From NCBI GenBank assembly GCA_029252405.1, contig JAQXBM010000013.1:1-43691 (forward strand): 43,691 nt of DNA, written 5' to 3'. Under the pieces are notes generated by a model that did no database searches, had not been told where the DNA came from, and saw nothing but the letters and a program-made list of their open reading frames with translations. This DNA is from Crocinitomicaceae bacterium. Its GTDB lineage: Bacteria; Bacteroidota; Bacteroidia; Flavobacteriales_D; Crocinitomicaceae. The translations under genes and the position numbers were made by a program. Shown piece after piece: positions 2,900 through 8,236 of this stretch (position 1 is its first letter; each line of letters starts with the position of its first letter).

Positions 2900-2913
2900 G
2901 AGGTATTTTTTTT

Positions 2914-3030
2914 GGGGCGTTCCCCTCAAACCCTCACACTCAAACCCCAACTCACTCTGAACATCGGGTCGGGTTATCCGCTGTAGTTCCCCTGTCAATA
3001 GACAGAGAAAGCTGCCGCTTCTATCCCTAA
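2914..3030. repeat. GGGCGTTCCCC-type intergenic repeat, copy 1 (long form)
   Basis: Between the convergent genes ending at 2899 and 3097. It opens with GGGGCGTTCCCC (2914-2925), a four-base-pair hairpin behind a T tract. A C-rich segment then shares 28 identical bases (2915-2942) with 7491-7518. The rest of this copy (2966-3030) has ATCGGGTCGGGTTATCCGC, a CTGTC/GACAG hairpin and CCGCTTCTATCCCTAACGC. From memory, closely similar intergenic elements occur in many flavobacterial genomes; I know no established name or function. It may work as a 3'-end structure. Confidence 0.6.
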
Positions 3031-3096
3031 CGCAAAAATCACGTTCAAAATGGATCTTGCGTTGGATGTGAAAGATGATGGATTTGGTTGACTTCG

Positions 3097-5190
3097 TTAG
3101 AACTTTCTGTGTTTTTCAGTTAGTTCGAACGTTTTTTCAACGGCTTTACCCCACTTAGGGCTTGCTATTTCCTTGTATCTTTTTACCTGCTTCTCAATCC
3201 ATTTTTTGAATGCTGGAGGATCTTCTCTAAGACGAATGATGTTCTTACAAATCCGCTGAAGAATCCAGAAGTTATGGCCAGATCGCGCCATTCGAAGATT
3301 GAGCATCATTGCATCACTTCCAGACCTCATTTTACTGAAAAACGGAATGTATTTCTCTATCATTTCGGGTTGATCTTCTAAATCTCGACCAAGCTGCTTA
3401 AAGTTCATGTCACTTGTTATGTTCAGTTCATCCCTTAATCCATCCCAGTCACTTGGAAACATGGATTCGAATGACGTGAAGAAGGGAGAAGCTGAATCAA
3501 AGGCTGTCCCATCAATTAGGTGTATGGCAGCTACTCTGTACATGTCCATTTTAATGTATGCCTTTTTATCTCCATAGAGTTTACCTGCCATAGCATCTTT
3601 AAAGGGAGCAGTTGAGTCTATGCTAACCGCGGATGAATGTCTAAGTTGATATCCAATAATCGCTATTAAGATTGGTGTTCCAACGCCCAAAATATGAAAT
3701 GGAACTGAGCTCGGATTTCCATTGATAATTCCCAACGTTAAGGATTGAGCGATTAAATAGGATTCAGGTAGTTTTTCCTCAAAAACCTCCATTTCACCGT
3801 CAATCTCCAAGCTATTGATCCAACGTTTACTGTGCATTGGTCCTCCATAACTAATTGCAATGCCATCTTTGGGAGAATCCAAACTATTGGTAGATGCCTG
3901 CAGTGCACTCTCATAATCATATGCATGGAGTACCAGGAAATTAGCAACTTTCTTTAGTTTTTCCATGTGTCCGAAAACTCCACTTTCCTGTTCAGAATAA
4001 AGTGATAGTGTTTTGGCTTGATAGCTTAGCACTTCGCTCGCATCTGGTTCAAAAATAGGATGCATTAAGTTACTCATCATCATGGCGGGAATGGCAAAAT
4101 CCTCCATTCCAATCATGTAGTCTGGGTCAATGCTAAGCTGTTTTTTGGTGATGTTATTGATGTCTAAAGATTCGGTGCTTTCTTCCGATTCCTTCCCGAT
4201 TAAGTCCATCAAATCTTTTCTCCTTTTGATGGTGTCAGCAGATATAACACCATTTCTTTTCATTTCGTCGCGAGCAGTATTCAATATATCAAGTCCCTTA
4301 TCATCATGTTTTGCGGCTATTAACTTGATTCTCGTGAAATTTCCGTTATCACTGATCAGTAGGTTTCTGCGTTGTTTGACCTCTTTGGCTAATTGAATGG
4401 TTGAGGGTGTCATATAGTGCTCAGATAGCAAGTACCCATCCCGTTTATAGGTGATGGGATTATTTGGATCGGCTGTTACTTTAGTGAGGTTCGAGATGAA
4501 AATAAACGCGTCCCGTTTCATTTTAGGGAGCTTTGGGCCTTCATTCTGCACGACTGTTTTTATTTTCTTACTTTCCTTTAGTGTTTCAGGATCTGAAAGA
4601 AAAAGAACCATCTCAAAGGCGCGTGCAAAACTAATAGGATAACCAATTTGAGAAGAAACCCCTTCAGAAACAATCGACTTTTCGCTCTTAATTTGTAAGT
4701 CTTGAAAAATTTTCAAATACTCAAAGTAGCGATCTACATTGTTCGTTTCTTGTTTGATTCCACCCAAGAATACATTTATCTTACTATCCCAAATCGGGTA
4801 GAGAGTAGGGTTCATGAAGTGAAGGATTTTTGATGTTCCAACGACCGAATTGTTGATGAGGCTTTTTACCTCTTTGAACTCTCCTTTACTTAGTTGTAAG
4901 TTGTTCTTCTTGACATCATTTAGCAATTCCAAAACACGGTCGAAATTGTCGTTTTTCCAAACGAAAACAGTCGGCATCCAGGCGTAAACGAGGTTGGCGG
5001 CTATTGTTAATTCTTGGCGTTGGAGAATTTCTTTGTCCTGAACGAATTGAATAAAATGTGGATAAGAAATGATATAAGATAAAGTTCTCTTTTCTGAAAC
5101 CCTGGTGGCAAGACTCAATTTTGGTATGTCAATTACAAGATTTTCCTGTAGGAATTTGAGATCTTCTATTCGGAGTTTATATAATGACAT
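3097..5190 (-). CDS. Putative TGT-superfamily (DpdA-like) transglycosylase with HhH-like N-terminus
   Basis: A 697-residue protein whose C-terminal half looks like a divergent tRNA-guanine transglycosylase (TGT, PF01702 fold). Landmarks occur in TGT order: SDNGNF (280-285) where TGT has the catalytic DSGGF; YGG (448-450) near the conserved glycine loop; HILGVGTP (499-506), close to the TGT MGVGTP strand; and SIDSTAPFKDAMAGKLYG around D525, matching the nucleophile segment FDCVxPTRxxRNG. No Cys-rich zinc site is visible, as in DpdA-type DNA transglycosylases of 7-deazaguanine DNA modification. The N-terminal ~200 residues are separate and contain GTSKILHFMNPTLYPIWDSK (118-137), a motif I associate with helix-hairpin-helix glycosylase-like domains. 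I start at 5190 (MSLYKLRIEDL); the 30 codons upstream look non-coding. No queuosine or dpd genes are nearby. The assignment is by eye; function is inferred. Confidence 0.5.
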   Translation of the reverse strand: MSLYKLRIEDLKFLQENLVIDIPKLSLATRVSEKRTLSYIISYPHFIQFVQDKEILQRQELTIAANLVYAWMPTVFVWKNDNFDRVLELLNDVKKNNLQLSKGEFKEVKSLINNSVVGTSKILHFMNPTLYPIWDSKINVFLGGIKQETNNVDRYFEYLKIFQDLQIKSEKSIVSEGVSSQIGYPISFARAFEMVLFLSDPETLKESKKIKTVVQNEGPKLPKMKRDAFIFISNLTKVTADPNNPITYKRDGYLLSEHYMTPSTIQLAKEVKQRRNLLISDNGNFTRIKLIAAKHDDKGLDILNTARDEMKRNGVISADTIKRRKDLMDLIGKESEESTESLDINNITKKQLSIDPDYMIGMEDFAIPAMMMSNLMHPIFEPDASEVLSYQAKTLSLYSEQESGVFGHMEKLKKVANFLVLHAYDYESALQASTNSLDSPKDGIAISYGGPMHSKRWINSLEIDGEMEVFEEKLPESYLIAQSLTLGIINGNPSSVPFHILGVGTPILIAIIGYQLRHSSAVSIDSTAPFKDAMAGKLYGDKKAYIKMDMYRVAAIHLIDGTAFDSASPFFTSFESMFPSDWDGLRDELNITSDMNFKQLGRDLEDQPEMIEKYIPFFSKMRSGSDAMMLNLRMARSGHNFWILQRICKNIIRLREDPPAFKKWIEKQVKRYKEIASPKWGKAVEKTFELTEKHRKF

Positions 5191-5278: not shown

Positions 5279-5304
5279 AAGCTCGAATAGAATCATTCGA
5301 GCTT
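5279..5304 (-). terminator. Perfect 10-bp hairpin between the Ala-rich gene and the TGT-like gene
   Basis: AAGCTCGAAT (5279-5288) and ATTCGAGCTT (5295-5304) are perfect inverted arms around a six-base loop. It lies 53 bp past the stop of the 99-residue gene and about 90 bp before the TGT-like start, so it may end the upstream two-gene transcript. The following sequence is only weakly T-rich (TTGTTCTCC on the minus strand), so an operator or processing site is an alternative. Confidence 0.5.
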
Positions 5305-5356: not shown

Positions 5357-5656
5357 CTAACTGCGGTTACATCTAGCCAGACATGCTTGCCATTCTTGGT
5401 GGGCCTGATGGTATGCTTGCATAGCGTTATGTGTCTTATAAATAGCTGCCACGTGAGCAGCCTCTGCTGCGGCAGCCGTGGCAATAGCCGCTGCGCACGC
5501 TGCGGTTCCTATACCTGTCCAAAACCATGGACAGGCCCCGATTACTAAGCCCTTAGCTGCGGTTGCTGCAAGGAAGGCACCTGTTTGATCTGCATGGGCA
5601 TTTTGCCAGGCAGTATATTTATCTTGTTGTCGAGTTCTCTCTGAATTACACGGCAT
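5357..5656 (-). CDS. Small Ala-rich hydrophobic protein, unknown
   Basis: A 99-residue protein I do not recognise. A polar, charged head (MPCNSERTRQQDKYTAWQNA) is followed by a long alanine/glycine-rich hydrophobic stretch (about residues 27-70) with GLVIGACPWFWTGIG and a run of alanines. The tail HQEWQACLARCNRS is polar and amphipathic. Five cysteines are present, two as CLARC at the end. There is no cleavable signal peptide. The middle could form one or two membrane-inserting helices, as in glycine-zipper or bacteriocin-like peptides, but no leader motif supports a bacteriocin. It begins 21 bp after the stop of the 457-residue gene, so the two are almost certainly one operon. Its local GC is higher than that of its neighbours, explained by the Ala codons. 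Confidence 0.6.
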   Translation of the reverse strand: MPCNSERTRQQDKYTAWQNAHADQTGAFLAATAAKGLVIGACPWFWTGIGTAACAAAIATAAAAEAAHVAAIYKTHNAMQAYHQAHQEWQACLARCNRS

Positions 5657-5677: not shown

Positions 5678-7051
5678 TTAATTAAGTGTGAAAAAAGTGT
5701 TCATTCCATCTTGGTAAAGAGGATAGTAGTCTCTCATTCGTTCTACTACATCATCTAACCAATTGGTCTTGGCCAGTTCATTAAGTGGTACACGATCAAA
5801 ATCGAGACCCGTCTGATCTTGAGCAAGCCATGACTCATTTCTTCGCACAAAGCCATTCATTCGCATGTAGGATCCAACTGCTACGCCATTATCTTCAAGT
5901 CCGAACATGTGTGCACGAAGAAGGACAGTGGAGTTAGTTTGCACATCTTTTAAGGTCACAAAGGTTGAGAATTTTGGTGCTGCTGGATCATCTTTGATTT
6001 CAATAGATGTAACCACACCTTCTACTTGTACAAGCGTACCATCGGCTATGTTGTTTCCCATCGAAGTTAAATCCTGAATAGACGTTTTTGCCCCAGTGGG
6101 AATACCAGAAGAATAGGCGCGCTTGTCCGTTCTTCTTTGTTCATTACTCAGCCAGCGATTGTAGCTTCGGTCAGAAAGGGCTACCCGAACGTAAGAAGCG
6201 TAGGCATAAAGTATTGTACAGCGATTTGCAATTTCACTTAATTTCAACGCTTCTTGATAATTGCTTGTTGATGCGTTTCCATTTGCTCCATTGGAGATCA
6301 GTGCTAAGTATGGTCCCATAATGGCACCCGAAATTCCAAACATGCCTTGCAACTTTTCTTGATATGATTTTGCCAATGCGCGCATTTCCTCGGCAGGCTT
6401 GTCATTTTTCAATGCATTGTAAAGTGCTTCGTATGCAGCGTCATGAATGTCCTGCAAAGAGCCACTCAGCTCAGAGATAAGCTTTGTGTCTTCTTCTCTA
6501 ATCGCTTGCTCACTGTCAAGTTCTTTTCCTGTTCTCAAATAGCCAATGTAATCACAAGAGACTGCATTAGTAAGCATATTGACGTACACTTCACCAAGAA
6601 AGTCTGTTTCTTGATCGGTAACTTTTGAGTTAGTTATGGCTAGATCGAAAATGGGATGGGTTCCATCGAGCATTGAATCATAGGCTGCTTGGCCTTCAGC
6701 TTCGCCCAACGAGCTTTTAAAGTTCTCGAGCATGGCCTTTTTCTTTTCCTCTGCTTCAGGAGAATTGTCAGCAGCCAGAGCTTTCATTGTTTTAGAAAGT
6801 TGGGCATCTTCATAATCTGCCAGTTTTCGCTCGCGTGAACTAACATAGGTTAGTAATTCAATTTTGTTCAAAATGTCGGCTCCCATTCCGTAAAATTGAG
6901 AAGCTAAATTTCGAACAGTTTGGTAATTGTTGTTTTCCCATGCATCCACGTAGGCGTCGGTGAGACTAATCACCCTCTCTTGCATGGCAATTGTAGAATT
7001 GCCGGCGCCAAGGGGAAGTACATGTAATGGGATAGATGTTTGTTGTGACAT
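5678..7051 (-). CDS. Helical protein with C-terminal OB-fold-like region, unknown
   Basis: A 457-residue cytoplasmic protein (MSQQTSIPLHV at the start, no signal peptide) that I cannot assign. Residues about 20-300 are mostly alpha-helical, with long charged helices (EEKKKAMLENFKSSLGEAEG) and a small Gly/Ala/Ile-rich patch around 240 (GISGAIMGPYLALISNGANG). Residues about 330-420 change to beta-rich sequence, GTLVQVEGVVTSIEIKDD then FVTLKDVQTNSTVLLRAHMFG then GSYMRMNGFVRR, which has the strand pattern of an OB fold (NirD/tRNA_anti-like) and could bind nucleic acid. The last 35 residues are polar and aromatic. It is the first gene of an operon with the 99-residue protein. The 525-bp region upstream is unusually rich in small palindromes. 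Confidence 0.65.
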   Translation of the reverse strand: MSQQTSIPLHVLPLGAGNSTIAMQERVISLTDAYVDAWENNNYQTVRNLASQFYGMGADILNKIELLTYVSSRERKLADYEDAQLSKTMKALAADNSPEAEEKKKAMLENFKSSLGEAEGQAAYDSMLDGTHPIFDLAITNSKVTDQETDFLGEVYVNMLTNAVSCDYIGYLRTGKELDSEQAIREEDTKLISELSGSLQDIHDAAYEALYNALKNDKPAEEMRALAKSYQEKLQGMFGISGAIMGPYLALISNGANGNASTSNYQEALKLSEIANRCTILYAYASYVRVALSDRSYNRWLSNEQRRTDKRAYSSGIPTGAKTSIQDLTSMGNNIADGTLVQVEGVVTSIEIKDDPAAPKFSTFVTLKDVQTNSTVLLRAHMFGLEDNGVAVGSYMRMNGFVRRNESWLAQDQTGLDFDRVPLNELAKTNWLDDVVERMRDYYPLYQDGMNTFFTLN

Positions 7052-7576
7052 ACTGTTTTGGTTAAGTACTGATTAAACGCGTGAGTTAGTGACTCATTTT
7101 TTGACATAAGTCTCCATGTTGCACGTGTGCAATCAATACAGGTTAATGAATGTTTTTGACGTCAGTGGTTAGTACTGATCATGATGTAATTAAAATAATG
7201 GCGTCTTCTTAAATATACTTAAATTCTGTGGAAGTCGAATGCTGCATTGAAGGGATTTTTTTTATGCGACTATTTAGTTATAAAGCAGTTATAAATGGAT
7301 GTTAACATCGTGGTGTTCGTCGTTTAGGGGCTTTACGAACAGTATCGTGAAATAGAAGTGAACTGATATTGAACGGGAAATTAAGTGAAGTTCATTAAAA
7401 AACAGGTAATTCCCGAAATGTAAAATACGTGTTTCCGATGGTGAATTTCGAAGAAAAGAGGCACTTAATAAACGCATGATGAAGTAATTTGGGCGTTCCC
7501 CTCAAACCCTCACACTCACACTCGAACTCACCCTAAAAAATAAGAACCTTCTCTCTCAGCAAGGCTTAGCTAACTT
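7052..7576. other. 525-bp intergenic region with clustered small palindromes
   Basis: No convincing gene. The first 140 bases, upstream of the minus-strand operon, hold several short symmetric sites: TGAGT-N5-ACTCA (7082-7096), TTGCAC-GT-GTGCAA (7119-7132), GACGTC (7159-7164), TGATCA/ATCATGAT (7176-7184), plus two copies of TTAGTACTGAT-like sequence (7072-7083 and 7169-7178) and two TTTTTGAC runs. This looks like a regulated promoter with several binding sites. The middle (7200-7480) shows nothing I can name; a 62-codon frame there does not look like protein. The far end carries the repeat copy at 7491. Confidence 0.45.
7488..7545. repeat. GGGCGTTCCCC-type intergenic repeat, copy 2 (short form)
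   Basis: GGGCGTTCCC followed by C-rich sequence; 28 bases (7491-7518) are identical to 2915-2942, and similarity continues weakly through AACTCACCCT to about 7541. The second half of copy 1 (the CGGGTCGGG and CTATCCCTAACGC parts) is missing. It lies just past the 3' end of the YfiT-like gene. Confidence 0.6.
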
Positions 7577-8116
7577 TTATGATTTATTTTCTAACCCAAG
7601 TTTGATGTGGCCCAAATGATGCTCACAATGCCACGCATATGTGCCAATTGCCTCAAGAATAGACACCTCAGTTCCATGCTCTGGATGAACGTATTTCCGT
7701 TGCAAATCATGTTCAGTCAATCCAGTCAACAAGCGCGTCCATTTCGAGTGAAGTGCTGTTAATAAATCAATCGAATCGTTCAAATCTTCTTCAGTTCCAT
7801 CAGATAACTCAGCCCAACGATCTTCATGGTAAGGGCGAATAGTCGGAGAATCTTCGGTCAAACTCAGCTTGAATCGAATAATACTATTCATGTGACTATC
7901 AGCGCAGTGATGTACAACTTGTTTGATGTTCCAACCGCCCGGGCGATACGGTAAATGCTTATCTTCAGAGGAAAGATACTTGGTTAAAACCTTCAGTTTC
8001 TTCGGGAAAGCAGAGATCATTTCGATCCAACTTGATTTTAATTCAGTTGAAACTTCCGTTGGCATTTGGAACTCTCCAATTGGGAAACGCAAGTCGTAAA
8101 GATTATCGCGTGACAT
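7577..8116 (-). CDS. YfiT-like DinB-superfamily metal-dependent protein
   Basis: A 179-residue member of the DinB/YfiT family (related to BstA bacillithiol S-transferases and putative metal hydrolases), cytoplasmic. The family signature is strong: RPGGWNIKQVVHHCADSH (first metal-ligand region), then TEDSPTIRPYHEDRWAEL, then AWHCEHHLGHI near the C-terminus carrying further His ligands of the four-helix bundle. I start at 8116, giving MSRDNLYDLRFPIGEF, because family members begin just before the RYPIG-like motif; an ATG at 8137 would add seven residues. It follows the penicillin-binding gene by about 120 bp on the same strand and may belong to the uvrA transcript. Family membership is well supported; the substrate is unknown. 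Confidence 0.85.
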   Translation of the reverse strand: MSRDNLYDLRFPIGEFQMPTEVSTELKSSWIEMISAFPKKLKVLTKYLSSEDKHLPYRPGGWNIKQVVHHCADSHMNSIIRFKLSLTEDSPTIRPYHEDRWAELSDGTEEDLNDSIDLLTALHSKWTRLLTGLTEHDLQRKYVHPEHGTEVSILEAIGTYAWHCEHHLGHIKLGLENKS

Positions 8117-8236
8117 GAGCTGGGGATTTGACCACAATATATTGTAAAATCAATAATTTCCATTGATAGATCGTCGAATCTCTTAATTGAATTTTTTTTA
8201 AAAGAGTTGAAATTTATTGGAATGGTTCTCCACTTT

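Follow-up and report, generated by a model that had tools for sequence, protein, structure and literature searches.

A TGT-like enzyme gene with an N-terminal accessory domain is the third gene of a mobile-looking unit in a Crocinitomicaceae bacterium

The analysed stretch of DNA (hereafter the window) is 43,691 nucleotides long and comes from a contig of a Crocinitomicaceae bacterium. Genes in the window were named by reading their translations, except DinB, which was named by Pfam. Three genes on the minus strand, flanked by a pair of direct repeats, are the subject of this report. The features are as follows.

2912..2961, plus strand: left direct repeat, 50 nt (repeat comparison).
2963..3038, minus strand: Flavo-1 RNA-like element next to the left repeat on its inner side, at the cassette's 3' end (Rfam RF01705; 41.6 bits, slightly short of the gathering score of 42; E = 1.3e-6).
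3097..5190, minus strand: TGT-like protein of 697 aa with an N-terminal accessory domain (ORF, motifs, alignment and profile test).
3097..4545, minus strand: TGT-like enzyme region, residues 216-697, with D281, E363, H422, G449-G450, H499-P506 and D525 (three-member alignment and TGT profile test).
4546..5190, minus strand: N-terminal accessory domain, residues 1-215, forming an independent module (stand-alone relatives in loci L009, L026, L027 and L028/L029).
5357..5656, minus strand: 99-aa protein with an Ala/Gly-rich hydrophobic middle and a Cys near the C-terminus (hydropathy; a 99-aa protein holds the same place in locus L008).
5678..7051, minus strand: 457-aa protein, encoded by the unit's first gene, with an OB-like region at about residues 325-430 (BLASTP and weak OB-type matches).
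7488..7537, plus strand: right direct repeat, 50 nt, with 88% identity to the left one (repeat comparison).

The 697-aa ORF runs from an ATG at 5190 to a stop at 3097; its frame stays open upstream as far as a TTG at 5280, and the plus strand carries no translation of this stretch. The earlier note had considered it a possible solo gene. It is the last of three: the genes stand in the order 457-aa OB-like, 99-aa and TGT-like, with gaps of 21 bp and, before the enzyme gene, 166 bp. The new observation here is that a TGT-like gene takes the third place in a three-gene unit, whose order recurs in a second genome and which has a related arrangement in a third. The motif blocks quoted in the earlier note were found with the same numbering (SDNGNF 280-285, YGG 448-450 and HILGVGTP 499-506), as were SIDSTAPFKDAMAGKLYG around D525 and SKILHFMNPTLYPIWDS in the N-terminal part. 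In an alignment of the three family members described below, D281, E363, H422, G449, G450, H499 and D525 are invariant (3/3), including the two aspartates that the note had singled out, and the GVGTP-type block reads GLGTP in the member at L005.

The protein has no meaningful match in Pfam, NCBIfam, PHROGs, PADLOC or PDB sequences. Pfam family PF01702, that of bacterial Tgt, gave zero matches to it at E up to 1, and a PF01702 search of its own genome returned the canonical TGT gene on contig C63 only. At E up to 1, the other matches to the 697-aa protein in its own genome amount to one 63-residue stretch (E = 0.19) with a stop. Across the order, 3 of 299 genomes gave a match: the window's own, G060 and G014. 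The relative in G060 (L003; the same gene in L007 and L008) has 477 aa and covers residues 215-692 at 49% identity, and in G014 (L004/L009) only the N-terminal part was matched. When the species genome collection was scanned with the single protein, no relative was found; a two-member profile later found one in a Cytophagales MAG (L005, genome G691), with 44% identity and a frameshift near the 3' end of the gene. Further members were absent from the phylum sample (1/395) and the class sample (1/395), where the one match was the window's own genome each time, from the family of G060 (1/39, G060 itself) and from the order of G691 (1/291, G691 itself); these samples may overlap. Nothing matching the enzyme part was found among plasmids and phages, and viral contigs yielded no TGT-like relative. 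Residues of about 216-697 represent a distinct family that looks very rare within the collections searched. Among the papers listed from the open-access literature searched, none dealt with this family, which is not proof of absence in print. That literature held nothing on a TGT with HhH; for a TGT with an OB-fold it held one paper, on BRC loci (PMC12839542).

Kinship with canonical TGTs was assessed against a profile of 31 canonical TGTs of the window's phylum, from 30 of the 60 matching genomes (loci returned with sequence) and from G060. The three-member profile scored 31.29 against it over 185 columns. This score was reached by 0 of 300 column-shuffled controls (best 26.2) and by 0 of 119 real-protein decoys (best 26.74), which were unrelated ORFs from which TGT ORFs, family members, duplicates and the ORFs of phage loci L015-L025 had been removed beforehand. 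The reversed three-member profile scored 18.42, and DpdA, an accepted TGT relative, reached 23.67 against the same TGT profile. The TGT-like resemblance proposed earlier from motifs thus exceeds chance in a modest profile test; column shuffling is a lenient null, the family has three members, and the excess is not a database-level E-value. The signal is supplied by the three-member profile and by the member at L003 (36.34) rather than by the window sequence alone (23.95), which, like L005 (17.21), stays below the best decoy. Comparisons built on fewer TGT sequences gave weaker similarity.

The profile alignment, which was made without hints, places the motif blocks in TGT order. It pairs PDYMIGMED with the DIIMAFDEC block, FLVLHAYDY with FPIVQGSVY, GIAISYGG with GNAIGG, HILGVGTP with YLMGVGTP, and IDSTAPFKDAMAGKLY with the FDCV-P-RNAR-G-LF block, which puts D525 at the place of the TGT nucleophile Asp. 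SDNGNF falls outside the significant local alignment and is left unpaired with TDSGGY by MAFFT, so the pairing of D281 with the Asp of TDSGG is a reading of motifs. The last block was also described by the pattern D[SC]xxPx[KR][DN]AxxGx[LI][FY], drawn after both families had been seen. Among 199 ORFs of at least 250 aa, it occurs solely in 14 of the 31 TGTs and in 7 further ORF records, all of them duplicates of the window gene and the L003 gene. The L005 member falls outside the pattern because the Pro of this block is absent there.

Alternatively, an enzyme with a different (beta/alpha) fold, such as another one that handles glycosyl or phosphoribosyl groups, could have converged on GVGTP-like and DST-like loops without being TGT kin. 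We consider this somewhat unlikely. It is favoured by the lack of a curated TGT match, by the 12 weak and unrelated chains that a PDB profile search returned, with no TGT among them, by the low pLDDT (40.2 and 37.7) of two AlphaFold models built from few input sequences, and by the two of three single members that do not rise above the best decoys. The two models themselves speak neither for nor against a barrel. However, several blocks stand in TGT order, and among the 199 ORFs the last-block pattern is confined to TGTs and the window and L003 copies, with L005 as a misfit and the pattern itself being post hoc. Profile statistics and the invariant motif residues support TGT-type kinship, which lacks a curated family match.

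The TGT-like enzyme resembles bacterial Tgt (PF01702) in the common order of its FDEC-like, VQG-like, AIGG-like, GVGTP and nucleophile-Asp blocks. On the other hand, it has Glu at the Asp place of FDEC, His at the Gln place of VQG and DST in place of DCV, together with inserted segments, a different C-terminal part, partner genes and no PF01702 match. The window genome and G060 each carry one canonical TGT separately, elsewhere in the genome. The earlier note had remarked on a missing zinc-Cys cluster, and CxCxxC is indeed absent from all three members. Since this motif is present in only 13 of the 31 canonical TGTs of the phylum (L013, L014 and L039-L067), is absent from the other 18, and is also missing from the window genome's own canonical TGT, its absence is uninformative and was dropped as a distinguishing trait.

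The fusion of the enzyme part to an unrelated N-terminal region, also noticed earlier, is borne out by relatives of either half: the enzyme part stands alone in L003/L008, and the N-terminal part occurs by itself in four other sources. Residues 1-215 thus make up a module of their own. One stand-alone relative lies in another genome of the order (L009) and one on a Photobacterium plasmid, in the vicinity of a MazG-like gene (L026). A third (L027, 2313-4564), from a Salinimonas plasmid, comes after a RES-domain gene and one further gene, with an integrase gene adjoining. The fourth is the same protein in two viral contigs with differing surroundings (L028 and L029, 5935-6543), like a movable accessory gene, and no further viral contig was a source of this domain. 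The suggestion that this part is HhH-glycosylase-like is not supported, as neither Pfam nor the PDB sequences gave it a match to an HhH or HhH-GPD family. It is helical in a low-confidence AlphaFold model. DUF6308 (PF19827) gave a weak local match near the SKxLHF..P..WDS block in three of the four N-terminal members scanned (best E = 0.013), far under the Pfam cut-off (15.8 vs 27.3 bits), and no paper on the name DUF6308 was found in the open-access literature searched.

In L008, the enzyme gene follows a 482-aa and a 99-aa gene in the same order, with gaps of 12 bp and 1 bp. The large partners of the window and L003 match each other weakly by BLASTP (E = 0.002) in the OB-like region. The OB-type matches themselves are weak (RecG, E 0.04, for the window partner; tRNA_anti-like, E 0.24, for the L005 relative). 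Sequence similarity between the 99-aa proteins of the window and L008 was not detectable, and thus what they are claimed to share is limited to position, length and a hydrophobic middle. A two-transmembrane hairpin was considered for these proteins and rejected, as hydropathy gives one segment above 1.5 in each. In L005, the enzyme gene comes after genes of 641 and 657 aa that are related to the large partner, and after genes for small membrane proteins. Since a 5' remnant of about 60 codons of a second TGT-like copy sits between the two OB-like genes, this arrangement was probably duplicated in tandem and is now decaying. At L005 2140-9972, genes for several small membrane proteins, whose C-terminal parts read as similar, are interspersed with those for the OB-like partners. 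A partner profile run against 249 genomes of the order matched the window's own genome and G060, both of which are in the profile, and one 52-residue stretch in G071, within what reads as a lipoprotein, which was left uncounted. As no clear OB-like partner was found in a further genome among these 249, the co-occurrence of the genes rests on few genomes.

The unit could also encode a base-releasing toxin of a toxin-immunity or abortive-infection system, whose TGT-like part would remove guanine from tRNA or DNA and whose hydrophobic and OB-like proteins would sense or deliver. The rarity and patchiness of the unit, its apparent tandem duplication and decay in one genome, and the occurrence of the N-terminal domain by itself, beside a RES-domain gene on a single plasmid and in two viral contigs whose neighbouring genes differ, are consistent with this reading. 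However, no immunity-like gene was identified and the RES link is a single neighbourhood, and we regard a toxin as quite improbable.

The three-gene unit looks like a mobile cassette. A transporter gene that flanks it is present in 31 of the 34 genomes of the genus, the window's own included. Eight neighbourhoods were read from the other 30; one (L088) ends too near the transporter, and in the seven informative ones the three cassette genes had no tblastn match (E 1e-8). In G276, about 60 bp separate the homologues of the flanking genes at 2483-2899 and 7577-8137, compared with 4,677 bp in the window, as at an empty site. A 21-base core of the repeats occurs exactly in the genome only at the two window repeats, and with 2 mismatches at one place on another contig. 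This imperfect third copy adjoins a DUF6884 gene (L095, 1758-2165), which could be another cassette of like kind. A GGGCGTTCCCC element resembling these repeats, followed by a TCCGCT block, is present at another locus of the phylum (L052). No paper on a Flavo-1 RNA in Bacteroidetes was found in the open-access literature searched. Around the L008 unit no comparable repeat pair was found, the longest match being 23 nt at 78%. Reading of the ORFs gave no sign of an integrase or transposase in the unit. The GC content is 0.389 for the enzyme gene, 0.424 for the OB-like gene and 0.517 for the 99-aa gene, against 0.409 for the window; recent transfer lacks GC support since the enzyme and OB-like genes are close to the window value.

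The supply of 7-deazaguanine bears on what the enzyme could insert. The earlier observation that no queuosine cluster is present holds, by reading of the window ORFs and in that QueC was not found in the three host genomes. The QueC profile PF06508 gave five weak partial matches there (20.8 to 28 bits, cut-off 22), and these places read as asparagine synthetase AsnB (2), TilS, argininosuccinate synthase ArgG and MnmA; for G691 the absence is limited by a completeness that is not given. Since all five matches read as other enzymes, no home-made preQ0 is evident.

A DpdA-like enzyme that inserts a salvaged 7-deazaguanine in DNA, within a system like restriction, is in our judgement quite improbable. 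The mobile-looking cassette with its OB-like partner is compatible with it. H499 is aligned with the His of VHGFG in phage DpdA, which is a hint and not a test, H422 resembles the His of CFHAGE by reading only, and Ser follows the putative nucleophile Asp in both (DST vs DSS). According to PMC6884629, His196 is conserved in DpdA and absent in DpdA2, and there are hosts without QueDEC that have a preQ0 transporter. However, the three-member profile scored a non-significant 17.96 against ten phage DpdAs, which 56 of 300 shuffles reached; these are 10 of 12 phage genes, of which one more was compared singly (E 0.15) and one was left out. Unlike phage DpdA, the TGT-like enzyme has other partners; its surroundings show no preQ0 genes on reading, and QueC was not found in its genome. 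PADLOC matches none of the three cassette proteins, and no nuclease was recognised in the cassette by reading. TGT homologues with other partners also occur in BREX-related capture (BRC) defence loci, as described in PMC12839542. As in BRC, a TGT homologue has here joined a locus of several genes that lacks DpdB and DpdC; HerA/FtsK, PglZ, DUF6079, the STAND NTPase and GNAT, which that paper gives for BRC, were not recognised among the window ORFs by reading.

We consider that the gene may represent a divergent branch of the TGT/DpdA superfamily, a base-exchange enzyme in a mobile three-gene cassette that perhaps has a role in conflict with mobile elements, and give this reading, drawn from sequence comparison, an even chance. 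The TGT-like part would form the usual TGT barrel, in which D525, at the TGT nucleophile place, would attack the sugar of a guanosine within a nucleic acid, D281 would serve as the general acid/base, and E363 and H422 would line the base pocket. The guanine would then be swapped for another base, or released. The OB-like partner might present the nucleic acid, the 99-aa hydrophobic protein may anchor the complex at the membrane, and the N-terminal domain would be an add-on module of the window's copy. A bolder version, which we think unlikely, is a new mobile base-exchange system, in which a membrane-tethered TGT-superfamily enzyme with an OB-type partner would rewrite or remove the guanine of incoming DNA (or of RNA) by means of a base that is not a home-made 7-deazaguanine. 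To our knowledge, TGT-type enzymes are established as base exchangers only with guanine and 7-deazaguanines, acting on tRNA and on the DNA of some phages and bacteria. A rare TGT branch with OB-like and hydrophobic partners, in hosts where QueC was not found, would point to salvage or to a different exchanged base.
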